From: Rhabdothermincola salaria
GTDB taxonomy: Bacteria; Actinomycetota; Acidimicrobiia; Acidimicrobiales; Acidimicrobilacustridaceae
Direction: 5' to 3'
Assembly: GCF_021246445.1 (NCBI RefSeq)
Contig: NZ_JAJQXW010000004.1
Location: 124,001-188,000 of the forward strand
DNA: 64,000 nt
The notes under the pieces are model-generated. The model did no database searches and was not told where the DNA came from. It worked only from the letters and a program-made list of their open reading frames with translations. A program made the translations under genes and the position numbers. Below, piece after piece: positions 31,432 to 49,001 of the stretch (position 1 is its first letter; each line of letters opens with the position of its first letter).

Positions 31432-32526
31432 TTGCCCCGGCCCCGGCTGTTGCACCTGGGTCCACCGCTGGCCGTCATCGTGGTGCTGCTGGGCCTGCTC
31501 GTGTGGGCCGTCGCCACCGACCACCTGGTGACGGCGGTCTGGGCCACGTTCGGCGTGTCGGCCGCCCTCGTCTGGTTCGTGCTCGGCGGCCTCCGCGACC
31601 GCCGGCACATGACCGCCGAGCTCCAGGGCCGGGACACGCAGCTGCTCACCGTGCTCGACGGACTGCCCATCGCCGTCATGCTGCGTGACGAGAAGGGCCA
31701 CTTGCTCCACGCCAACCCCGGGACCGAACGGTTCCTCGAACGCCTGGGGCTGACCGTCGACCACATCGCCGAGAGCCCGGTGGCCATGCTCGACCACATC
31801 GACGTGATCCGCGAGGACGGCCGCCCGTGGCGGCCCGCCGATCTCCCGGTCGTCTCGGCGATCCGCGACGGCGTGAGCACCGACGCCGTGCTCGGCTACG
31901 CCCTGCCCGAGGGGGGCTGGGCGTGGTACTCGGCGCGCGCCGAACCCCTCCCGCTCGGCGACGGCACCCTCGGCACGGTGCTCACCCTCGACGACGTCAC
32001 CGAGCGCCGCGCTCTCGAGCAGGAGCTGCGCGATGCCGCCCTCACCGACCCCCTCACCGGGCTGGCCAACCGTCGGGCGCTGTCCGAACGCCTCGCCGAG
32101 GCCCAGAAGCGCCAGGCCCGCCACGGCGGCGTGATCGGGCTCATCTACCTCGACCTCGACGGCTTCAAGGCGGTCAACGACACCTGGGGCCACGACGTCG
32201 GCGACCGGGTCCTGATCTCGGTGGGCGAGCGCCTGCGTCGCGGCACCCGGGCCATCGACCTCCCCTGCCGCATCGGCGGCGACGAGTTCGTCGTGCTCTG
32301 CGACCCGCTGGAGGACCCGGCGGACCTCGCCGACCTGGTGAGGCGGTTGCGCGAGCTCCCACCCCTCATGGTGCCCGGCAGCCGCGCCGACGCGTTGACG
32401 GTGAGCATCGGGTCGGTGGTCGTGGAGCGGGGCGAGGGCCTCGACACCGCCCTGCGGCGCGCCGACCGCTCCATGTTCCAGGCCAAGCGGGGCACCCCGC
32501 CCGGGCCGGCCGCCGAGGCCGGCTGA
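31432..32526 (+). CDS. membrane-anchored PAS-GGDEF diguanylate cyclase
   Basis: The 364-residue product has two N-terminal helices (about 12-29 and 33-53), a PAS-like sensor (about 65-185) and a C-terminal GGDEF domain. The active site RIGGDEFVV is intact, and an RxxD inhibitory site (RAID) sits five residues before GGDEF, so product inhibition is likely. No EAL domain is present. It would make cyclic di-GMP from GTP at the membrane. No ATG or GTG is available in frame after the TGA at 31384; TTG at 31432 is given here. AAGAAT six nt before an in-frame ATC at 31399 raises the possibility of an earlier, non-canonical start. Confidence 0.85.
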   Translation: MPRPRLLHLGPPLAVIVVLLGLLVWAVATDHLVTAVWATFGVSAALVWFVLGGLRDRRHMTAELQGRDTQLLTVLDGLPIAVMLRDEKGHLLHANPGTERFLERLGLTVDHIAESPVAMLDHIDVIREDGRPWRPADLPVVSAIRDGVSTDAVLGYALPEGGWAWYSARAEPLPLGDGTLGTVLTLDDVTERRALEQELRDAALTDPLTGLANRRALSERLAEAQKRQARHGGVIGLIYLDLDGFKAVNDTWGHDVGDRVLISVGERLRRGTRAIDLPCRIGGDEFVVLCDPLEDPADLADLVRRLRELPPLMVPGSRADALTVSIGSVVVERGEGLDTALRRADRSMFQAKRGTPPGPAAEAG

Positions 32527-46650: not shown

Positions 46651-47127
46651 TCAGCCCTCGGGGGCGTCCCCGAAGCGGGAGGCGTACCCGATGCGCAGCG
46701 CCGGCAGGAAGCACTGCTCCACGTAGGCGTAGAGCGAGCCCAGGATCCGATCGAGCTCACCGTCGTCGACGGCGTGCACGCCCAGGCTGCCCTCGAGGAA
46801 CACCGCGTCCTCGGCGCCGATGGTGAACGCCGCGCCGGTGAGCTTGTGGTTGCGGCGCAGCAGGTGCTCGTAGAAGGCGGCGTGGTTCTCCTCGGGGGCC
46901 GGCATCACGTAGGTCTCGTAGTGCAGGGTCCGCTGGCGCAGGGTGAACCAGATCGAGAACACGTCCTTGGACTCGCCGAGGACCCGCACGTACCACCGGC
47001 GCTCGCCCGGCTCGCCCCGTTCGACGGCGGCCACCACCGGGTTCTCGTCCAACTGCGCCGCCAGCCACCCGTCGATCAGATCCTCGAGCGCATCGAGGGT
47101 GGCGGGGTCGGCGATCTCGTCGGCCAT
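46651..47127 (-). CDS. YbjN-domain protein
   Basis: This 158-residue protein of the YbjN/SRP-like type III chaperone fold has RRWYVRVLGESKDVFSIWFT, LHYETYVMPAPEENHAAFYE, HLLRRNHKLTGAAFTIGAED and VEQCFLPALRIGY. In mycobacteria and streptomycetes a YbjN gene follows mshA, and the same order occurs here, 29 bp after mshA. The biochemical role is unknown. An AGGGAG site lies 8 nt before the ATG. Confidence 0.87.
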   Translation of the reverse strand: MADEIADPATLDALEDLIDGWLAAQLDENPVVAAVERGEPGERRWYVRVLGESKDVFSIWFTLRQRTLHYETYVMPAPEENHAAFYEHLLRRNHKLTGAAFTIGAEDAVFLEGSLGVHAVDDGELDRILGSLYAYVEQCFLPALRIGYASRFGDAPEG

Positions 47128-47156
47128 GGGAGCTCCCTGGGCGGTGGGCGCTGGCG

Positions 47157-48374
47157 TCAGGTGCAGCTGACGGGAGCGCGGGCGGTGAGGTCGGTGTAGA
47201 GGCGCCGCAGGCGAGCCGCGGTGGTGGACCACGTGTAGTGCCGGGCCCGCTCGGTGGCCGCCCGGCTCATGGCCGCGGCCCGGGCGGGATCGCCGAGGAT
47301 GGCCGCGGCGGCCCGGGCGTAGTCGTGAGGGGACCGGGTCTCGACCAGCGAGCCGGTGACTCCGTCGTCGACGAGGGTCAGCAGCCCCCCGACCGCGGCG
47401 GCCACCACCGGGGTGCCGCACGCCGCCGCCTCCAGGGCCACGAGGCCGAAGGACTCCGAGCGGCTGGGCACGATGCACAGGTCGGCCGCCCGGTAGTAGG
47501 TGGAGAGCAGGTGGTGGGGCTGGGGCTCGACGAAGCGCACCCGCTCGCCGAGGTGGTGCTCGTCGACGAGGGCGAGGGCCTGGGCCATCTCCCGCTCGCC
47601 CTCGGCGCCGCTCGGACCTCCGACCACGACCAGCACCGCATCGGGATGGGCGGCCGAGAGCTCGGCCAACGCCGAGATGGCGACCCCCAGGCCCTTGAGC
47701 GGCTGGATGCGACCGACGAAGAGCAGCACCGGGTGCTCGCCGAGACCGAGCGCGGCGCGCGCCCCCCGACGGTCGCCGGGCGAGAAGAAGGCGTGGTCGA
47801 CACCGGGGGGGACGATCTCGACCCGGCTCGGGTCGGCCCCGTAGAGCTCGACGAGCTGGGCGGCCTCGGCCGTGCCGTTGGCCAAGATGGCATCCGAGCA
47901 CCCGATGACGTCGGTCTCGGCCACCACCCGCCGGTCCGGTTCGAGGTCTCCGGTGTCGGCCTTGACCCGCGCCAGGGTGTGGAACGTGGAGACCAAGGGC
48001 AGCGAGAGCTCGTGCTTGAGTCGGTGCCCGGCCAGGCCCGAGAGCCAGTAGTTGGCGTGGAGGGCATCCGCGCCGTCGCGGCGTTGCAGGTGGTCCCGCA
48101 CGCCGTCGGCGTAGGCGTCGACCACGTCGGGCAGCTGCTCCTTGGCCAGGTCGTACGGACCGGCGTCGACGTGCACCACCCGGAAACCGGGCTCGACGTC
48201 GACGACCTCGGGCAGATCGGGCGACCACCTCCGCACGTAGACCTCGGCGCCCACGCCGGCCTGGGCCAGCGAGGCCACCAGCTCGCGCACGTAGACGTTC
48301 ATGCCGCCGGAGTCACCCGATCCGGGCTGGGCCAGCGGCGACGTGTGCAGCGAGAGGACGGCCAGGGAACGCAC
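47157..48374 (-). CDS. mshA: D-inositol-3-phosphate glycosyltransferase (mycothiol synthesis)
   Basis: This 405-residue GT4 (GT-B) enzyme begins LAVLSLHTSPLAQPGSGDSG-GMNVYVREL, the N-terminal signature of MshA. It has HANYWLSGLAGHRLK, the donor-site VLLFVGRIQPLKG near 217 and the E-x7-E region PSRSESFGLVALEAAACGTP near 308. It joins GlcNAc to inositol-3-phosphate, the first step to mycothiol. The frame extends to 48410, but the GTG at 48374 has TAACGT 7 nt upstream; GTG at 48383 is inside that hexamer. The following YbjN gene is conserved context. Confidence 0.92.
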   Translation of the reverse strand: MRSLAVLSLHTSPLAQPGSGDSGGMNVYVRELVASLAQAGVGAEVYVRRWSPDLPEVVDVEPGFRVVHVDAGPYDLAKEQLPDVVDAYADGVRDHLQRRDGADALHANYWLSGLAGHRLKHELSLPLVSTFHTLARVKADTGDLEPDRRVVAETDVIGCSDAILANGTAEAAQLVELYGADPSRVEIVPPGVDHAFFSPGDRRGARAALGLGEHPVLLFVGRIQPLKGLGVAISALAELSAAHPDAVLVVVGGPSGAEGEREMAQALALVDEHHLGERVRFVEPQPHHLLSTYYRAADLCIVPSRSESFGLVALEAAACGTPVVAAAVGGLLTLVDDGVTGSLVETRSPHDYARAAAAILGDPARAAAMSRAATERARHYTWSTTAARLRRLYTDLTARAPVSCT

Positions 48375-48381
48375 GGAGATC

Positions 48382-48387
48382 ACGTTA
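48382..48387 (-). promoter_or_regulatory. -10 hexamer TAACGT for mshA
   Basis: TAACGT ends 7 nt before the GTG at 48374, indicating a leaderless mshA transcript. Confidence 0.5.
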
Positions 48388-48428
48388 CGAGCGCCGAGAG
48401 CCGGAGCCACACTCCAGGCGGCAGGGGC

Positions 48429-49001
48429 TCACTCCGCCGGGGAGGACAGGGCGCTCTCGACGGTGGCCTCGCCGGAGCGGTAGCGGCGGGCCAACTCGCC
48501 GTTGAGCACGTCGATGGTGCGGTGCAGACGACGCCGGCGGGCCGAGACCTGCCGCTCGAGGGTGTCGAGCTCGGCGGCGAAGGCCACGAGCTCGTCGTCG
48601 GCGGCGGCGGCCACCTCGGCGGTGCGAGTCCCCCCGCGGGTGACCCGCTGCAGCTCGGCGGCCAGCTCGGGATCGATCTCGCTCGGTTCGAGGGCCATGG
48701 GGATGCGGCCGCCGGCCGTGCCGCGGCCACTCTCCGACAGCACCTCACCGAGCCCTTCCACCAGCCCGGCGAGGTCGCGCCGCTCGCCCCCGGCCCGGCT
48801 CTCGAGCTCACCCCGGACGAGGTCGAGGGGGCCTTGCACCAGGCGACGCAGGTAGGACAGCCCGGTCTCGGTGCCCACGGCCGCGTCGCGACGCTGGCGC
48901 AGCTCGACCAGGCTCAGCGCCGGCAGGTCCTCGGCACCGATCCCGTCGAGCTCGAGCGCGCTGTCGCCGTCGGGCGTCGGGGTGTCGTCGGTTCCTGACA
49001 T
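48429..49001 (-). CDS. RsiG-like protein, candidate c-di-GMP-binding anti-sigma factor
   Basis: This 190-residue, mostly helical protein carries the c-di-GMP signature E(X)3S(X)2R(X)3Q(X)3D once exactly, at E45-S49-R52-Q56-D60 (ETGLSYLRRLVQGPLD). A near copy sits in a later helix at E149-S153-R156-H160-D164, with His in place of Gln. RsiG of streptomycetes uses two such motifs on antiparallel helices to bind a c-di-GMP dimer and hold sigma factor WhiG. The middle (residues 68-135) is less conserved. AGGAGAAGG precedes the ATG, and TACAGT lies 50 nt upstream. No sigma-factor gene is adjacent. Confidence 0.75.
   Translation of the reverse strand: MSGTDDTPTPDGDSALELDGIGAEDLPALSLVELRQRRDAAVGTETGLSYLRRLVQGPLDLVRGELESRAGGERRDLAGLVEGLGEVLSESGRGTAGGRIPMALEPSEIDPELAAELQRVTRGGTRTAEVAAAADDELVAFAAELDTLERQVSARRRRLHRTIDVLNGELARRYRSGEATVESALSSPAE

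Follow-up and report, generated by a model that had tools for sequence, protein, structure and literature searches.

The closest described relative of the protein studied here is RsiG of Streptomyces venezuelae, known from crystals with the sigma factor WhiG and c-di-GMP (PDB 6pfj and 6pfv), which carries two c-di-GMP motifs on antiparallel helices joined by a loop. In contrast, RsiG of Rubrobacter radiotolerans (PDB 7lq2-7lq4) is a short single-motif homodimer, part of a c-di-GMP/WhiG switch for which control of type IV pili was inferred (Schumacher et al. 2021, PMC8325347). The presence of RsiG in a non-sporulating actinobacterium is thus already known from that work. The same article spells the motif with [Q/H], assigns its E, S, R and D to ribose and guanine contacts, and describes His as frequent in motif 1, where it fits the same stacking contact as Gln. 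It calls the Gln of motif 2 strikingly well conserved and motif 1 "the only exception", and reports His in motif 1 only. Three of its four Acidimicrobiales species had the twin-motif form, and few of its 135 homologues can therefore belong to this order.

We analysed a 64-kb stretch of DNA (the window) in which a gene at 48429-49001 on the minus strand encodes, from an ATG start, a protein of 190 aa. This gene very probably encodes an ordinary twin-motif RsiG, predicted to be a c-di-GMP-dependent brake on WhiG. It is the only RsiG copy found in the genome, and the plus-strand reading of the same interval is an unrelated frame. The protein matches the Pfam family PF22802 (RsiG-like) in two stretches, with 81.2 bits for a cut-off of 27, and a search of NCBIfam profiles gave no match at E <= 1. 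In phmmer searches against the PDB, residues 23-185 align with RsiG of S. venezuelae (6pfj, where it is named AmfC; E 3.7e-18), the similarity spanning both helices and the loop, and residues 14-73 align with the motif and helix of the single-motif Rubrobacter proteins (E 1.3e-4 to 2.9e-4). The original prediction, made from the two motifs, holds on these points. Motif 1 (residues 45-60; 48822-48869, minus strand) reads ETGLSYLRRLVQGPLD and matches E(X)3S(X)2R(X)3Q(X)3D exactly, while motif 2 (residues 149-164; 48510-48557, minus strand) reads ERQVSARRRRLHRTID and keeps the pattern except for His160 at the stacking position, where RsiG of S. venezuelae has Gln. The two motifs are not a chance observation, because the Pfam match covers two stretches, because the similarity to S. 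venezuelae RsiG extends over both helices, and because the family is present in 95 of the 148 genomes sampled from Acidimicrobiales. Twin-motif RsiG proteins of this kind are common in the order.

An AlphaFold2 model of the protein (mean pLDDT 83.3, pTM 0.74), built from an alignment of 57 sequences (itself and 56 high-scoring members of the set of 93 Acidimicrobiales proteins defined below), has two long helices at residues 31-71 and 135-176, with one motif on each. Only four PDB chains matched it in Foldseek at E <= 0.001, and all are RsiG chains of 6pfv or 6pfj (TMt 0.70-0.71). The protein is thus predicted to fold as an antiparallel coiled coil with a linking loop. With two motifs and 190 aa it differs from the Rubrobacter homodimers, and it is expected to act as a monomer.

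The gene has a conserved neighbour. A glycosyltransferase gene with Glycos_transf_1 and Glyco_transf_4 domains (47157-48410, minus strand) lies 18 bases past the stop of rsiG, and its product presumably resembles MshA. Of 62 order loci of 3.3-6 kb, 55 carry a homologue on the same strand downstream of rsiG, and this conserved order suggests that rsiG and the glycosyltransferase gene (47157-49001, minus strand) are co-transcribed. Next comes a gene for a YbjN-domain protein (46651-47199, minus strand; start codon not settled), found downstream of rsiG on the same strand in 28 of these 62 loci; its presence on the same transcript is a guess. The window also encodes a GGDEF domain at 32038-32490 on the plus strand (G000:C4:156038-156490; 133 bits).

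The original prediction had noted the substitution in motif 2. We tallied the stacking position in 93 RsiG proteins from the order, the one studied here included and S. venezuelae excluded, which come from 92 of the 95 RsiG-bearing genomes (the set leaves out G032, G084 and G129, and third matches in G052 and G065). In motif 1 the position is Gln in 81 proteins, His in 8, Glu in 3 and Gly in 1. Motif 2 has His there in 65 proteins, Phe in 28 and Gln in none, so that His is the common state in the order and not an oddity. The combination found here, Gln in motif 1 and His in motif 2, occurs in 53 of the 93 proteins, followed by Gln/Phe (28), His/His (8), Glu/His (3) and Gly/His (1). The remaining positions of motif 2 hardly vary, with E, S and R in all 93 proteins and D in 87 (N in 4, A and G in 1 each).

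A wider set of 90 loci was picked by score and family spread, hence not at random, from 396 sampled genomes of the phylum. Leaving out L206, which is from the same order, and L171, discussed below, it contains 41 single-motif proteins, with His (30) or Gln (11) in the slot, and 47 twin-motif proteins, in which the slot of motif 2 is Gln in 21, Leu in 10, His in 7, Phe in 5, Ile in 3 and Met in 1. One D tallied in the first slot is a misread chance motif in L129. All 11 loci of family f85 are Gln/Gln. The position at which motif 2 departs from the consensus thus varies by lineage, and the published view of the motif is amended: conservation of the Gln of motif 2 is limited to some of the sampled lineages. 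Jointly with the reading on pili developed below, we propose tentatively that this guanine-stacking slot (Gln, His, Phe, Leu, Ile or Met) is tuned by lineage and may set the affinity for c-di-GMP. Elsewhere in the phylum set, some twin-length proteins have a degenerate motif 1, with E replaced by R and D by E in L188 and L189 (family f74), and D by S in L192 (family f77). As candidates for altered c-di-GMP binding, these proteins are more promising than the one studied here.

The original prediction had further raised the possibility of an intermediate between the single-motif and twin-motif forms; in a protein on the way from dimers to monomers, motif 2 would be decaying or half formed. Motif 2 does depart at a single position from the consensus of S. 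venezuelae, but the slot is never Gln in the order, always being His or Phe, and the rest of the motif is fixed or nearly so. We built a tree of 137 half-domains over 56 columns, rooted at the midpoint and with many open forks, from 25 of the 93 order proteins, 30 other twin-motif proteins, 25 single-motif proteins and both halves of L171. The 55 first (alpha1) halves of the twin-motif proteins lie on one side of a branch (100/93) and the 55 second (alpha5) halves on one side of another (100/95). Both halves of the protein studied here fall with their own kind, and the single-motif proteins fall with the first helices. Since first and second helices separate in the tree, the duplication predates this protein, and one old duplication would explain the twin forms sampled in Acidimicrobiales and elsewhere. 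The second helix of the protein studied here joins a group of second helices from outside Acidimicrobiales, not those of its own order, via an open fork (88/89), which is a point in favour of an intermediate. Yet the protein has the full 190 aa, whereas the open frames of 36 of 41 single-motif proteins span 83-163 aa. On the residue tally and the half-domain tree we reject the intermediate, which we regard as extremely improbable.

A different case is L171 (710-1231, minus strand), where an open frame of 174 aa carries two His-type motifs, EDAISRRRRLLHGRID and EDDISLNRRVLHGQID; the same protein occurs in L315 (G253, family f104). The other two sampled members of the family (L144 and L152) have a single motif, and the first half of the L171 protein groups with that of L144 (81/75). 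These sequences suggest that in L171 RsiG was tandemly duplicated a second time, independently.

The genome encodes two FliA/WhiG-like sigma factors above 150 bits. The first, P0001 (G000:C3:128301-129065), is a WhiG, with 360.7 bits against NF004935 for a curated cut-off of 343 and an E-value of 1.2e-94 against the WhiG of 6pfj. The original prediction had made its case depend on such a sigma factor elsewhere in the genome, an objection that does not apply because the gene is present. It lies on a different contig from rsiG, outside the window, between a group formed by dprA, yifB and trmD and another formed by rpsB, pyrH and frr; UPF0102 and CTP transferase genes belong to the same stretch. 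Of 80 loci from named relatives, 50 have complete flanks, and in 43 of these whiG has rpsB or dprA no more than about 3 kb away; local synteny of whiG-like genes had been noted in a 2013 review (PMC4255298). The nearest named match of this WhiG (88%) is in a MAG filed as Actinomycetes, and the next two (77%) are filed as Acidimicrobiia and Acidimicrobiales; the best named matches are MAGs filed under these two names or only as Actinomycetes or Actinomycetota. Judging by these names, the organism probably belongs to Acidimicrobiales.

WhiG and RsiG go together in the order. We searched 80 genomes, namely 27 of the 95 that have RsiG (mostly bearing Flp pilins) and all 53 that lack it, and found a WhiG-class sigma (at least 283 bits) in 27 of 27 and 3 of 53, respectively (Fisher 2.6e-18, with relatives that are not independent). 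Among the former, 25 matches exceed the curated cut-off and two fall below it (G079, 335.7 bits; G006, 291.6 bits). The three exceptions among the latter are G141 (81% complete), G103 (74% complete) and G108 (283 bits); G087 has a match of 212 bits, below the line set for the class. This co-occurrence and the homology to the co-crystallized WhiG make P0001 the likely partner of the RsiG studied here. The second sigma factor, P0002 (L105:8697-9569, minus strand; G000:C2:432864-433526), scores just below the FliA_WhiG cut-off and also below that of WhiG. It is a less likely partner, because sigmas of its class occur in many order genomes that lack RsiG and because it has R, F and Q at the positions of the c-di-GMP contacts of WhiG.

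By analogy with the known family, RsiG would fold as a single chain into an antiparallel coiled coil with one c-di-GMP motif per helix. At high c-di-GMP it would bind a dimer of the nucleotide and hold sigma-WhiG, which would be freed when c-di-GMP falls. His160 would replace Gln as the residue stacking on guanine, as Schumacher et al. (PMC8325347) propose for the His of motif 1. Two findings count against this account: the Gln of motif 2 is strikingly well conserved in that article, where His is reported for motif 1 only, and WhiG of this genome has Ser in place of Gly61. At the positions of the S. venezuelae contacts K57, G61 and R62, alignment and inspection by eye give K, S and R. The contact pattern was readable in 69 of 90 loci; KGR prevails in the order (8 of 9 loci, the other being KSR) and in named loci (49 of 60, with 7 KSR, 2 KAR and 2 misread), which makes Ser a minority state among relatives. 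The Ser at this contact could be taken to mean that RsiG no longer binds c-di-GMP and that its action on WhiG is constitutive or absent. We consider this very unlikely, as E, S, R and D are kept in both motifs, WhiG is retained together with RsiG, and the genome has many GGDEF genes (24 matches, of which 23 are above the cut-off).

What the switch controls is a separate question, and the output is probably different from that in S. venezuelae. Here, the switch may control a pilus rather than spores. The genome's only site within one mismatch of the published flagellar consensus (TAAA-N15-GCCGATAA, spacing 15) is at G000:C1:367755-367781 on the minus strand. Two tandem Flp/Fap pilin genes follow (37.7 bits, above the Pfam cut-off of 32.2, and 25.8 bits, below it), the ATG of the first lying 75 bases past the end of the site. 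The site itself is downstream of genes for a LuxR-type response regulator (from Pfam) and a histidine kinase (by eye). A Pfam scan of the 10 ORFs of this region (L210) revealed no Tad machinery genes. We propose, tentatively and from the resemblance of promoters, that RsiG-(c-di-GMP)2-WhiG of Acidimicrobiales controls Flp (type IVb) pili via a FliA-type promoter that is conserved some 75-165 bases ahead of the pilin domain. That the pilin operon is a main output of the switch in this organism is a possibility of the same order, short of being probable. Among open-access papers, judged by title or the start of the abstract, none linked WhiG or RsiG to Flp pili; one of them (PMC13232838) concerns RmdB and RsiG in Streptomyces.

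The evidence for such a promoter comes from the regions upstream of pilin genes and not from genome-wide counts. Matches to the published consensus with at most two mismatches number 13 in this genome and 3 for the reversed control, but with at most one mismatch there is one of each. Genome-wide there is no excess over the control in 80 of the 95 RsiG-bearing genomes (229 against 230 sites), nor in the 53 genomes without RsiG (221 against 368). Of 41 sites read in context among the matches listed (L107 and L212-L251), only that of this genome has a Flp-like pilin within 700 bases. The -35 element is often TCA- at the Flp genes of relatives, and the published consensus therefore misses many of these sites. 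The pattern TMAR-N15/16-GCCGATAS matches this genome once and its control never, which is not an independent test because it was fitted after seeing the Flp sites, including this one.

The upstream regions comprise 49 stretches ahead of Flp matches from 42 order genomes (two others, of 51, had incomplete upstream sequence and were left out). Between 75 and 165 bases ahead of the Flp match, the sense strand carries the pentamer CCGAT in 28 of the 49 and the other strand in 10, compared with 52 of 392 windows further upstream (p 4.6e-11 for near against far on the sense strand). The 43 stretches from genomes with RsiG represent 37 genomes, and WhiG was found in all 24 of those tested for it. The published consensus, with a spacing of 14-16 and at most three mismatches, is present in 15 of them, against 7 of 172 windows further away (Fisher 2.1e-7), 4 of 43 on the other strand (0.008) and 3 of 43 for the reversed pattern. 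The other 28 have four or more mismatches, and a relative from the same family (G095) has a weak site with four. A Flp match was found in 44 of the 78 genomes searched; 24 of the 63 searched genomes with RsiG have none, and there the switch must do something else. Beyond the RsiG-bearing set, in L295 (G003:C2:3700-5200), from a genome with no match to RsiG or to a WhiG-class sigma, a Flp pilin is preceded by a FliA-type site, TAAAGGCCCCGCCTCCTACGCCGATAG, that has a single mismatch.

The sites might instead be read by a second FliA-like sigma of the P0002 class, with no control of pili by RsiG, and we give this explanation serious but tentative weight. Among 15 genomes without RsiG searched for Flp, all five with a match lack a WhiG-class sigma and have one of the P0002 class (162-188 bits), and two of these five, G003 (one mismatch) and G016 (three), keep good sites. 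The P0002 class also goes with Flp, being present in 25 of 31 genomes with pilins and 3 of 11 without (Fisher 0.0025), although presence was coded by hand afterwards, at 134-191 bits, and the relatives are not independent. On the other hand, sites are kept in genomes with WhiG and no P0002-class match: G004 (two mismatches, and five at a second pilin array), G029 (three and four), G079 (four) and G111 (three, and six in a second stretch). Moreover, the stretch following RIRGAIL in P0002 differs from that in WhiG of the same genome (DAVRAADWAPRSVR and DELRSIDWVPRSVR, respectively).

Another explanation is that WhiG drives flagellar genes and that RsiG ties motility to c-di-GMP. This clade of sigma factors is known for its flagellar role, and the 2013 review (PMC4255298) suggested that WhiG served early on in planktonic dispersal, noting that up to then a role in motile simple actinobacteria had not been analysed. 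Flagellated species make up 41-91% of basal classes, Acidimicrobiia included, according to a 2023 study of flagella and GGDEF counts in Actinobacteria (PMC10746217), whose main text does not contain the word WhiG. However, the only site of this genome that comes within one mismatch of the flagellar consensus precedes pilin genes, and we consider a flagellar output unlikely.

Overall, the RsiG described here is itself expected. Its interest is that, in a lineage other than Streptomyces and Rubrobacter, it comes with a clear partner and a candidate target, so that the output of RsiG-WhiG in this lineage can be tested directly. The lead on pili and the lineage-tuned stacking slot are both worth following. 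If control of Flp pili by the switch is true, then together with the type IV pili of Rubrobacter it would make surface pili an old output of RsiG-WhiG, and sporulation a later co-option.
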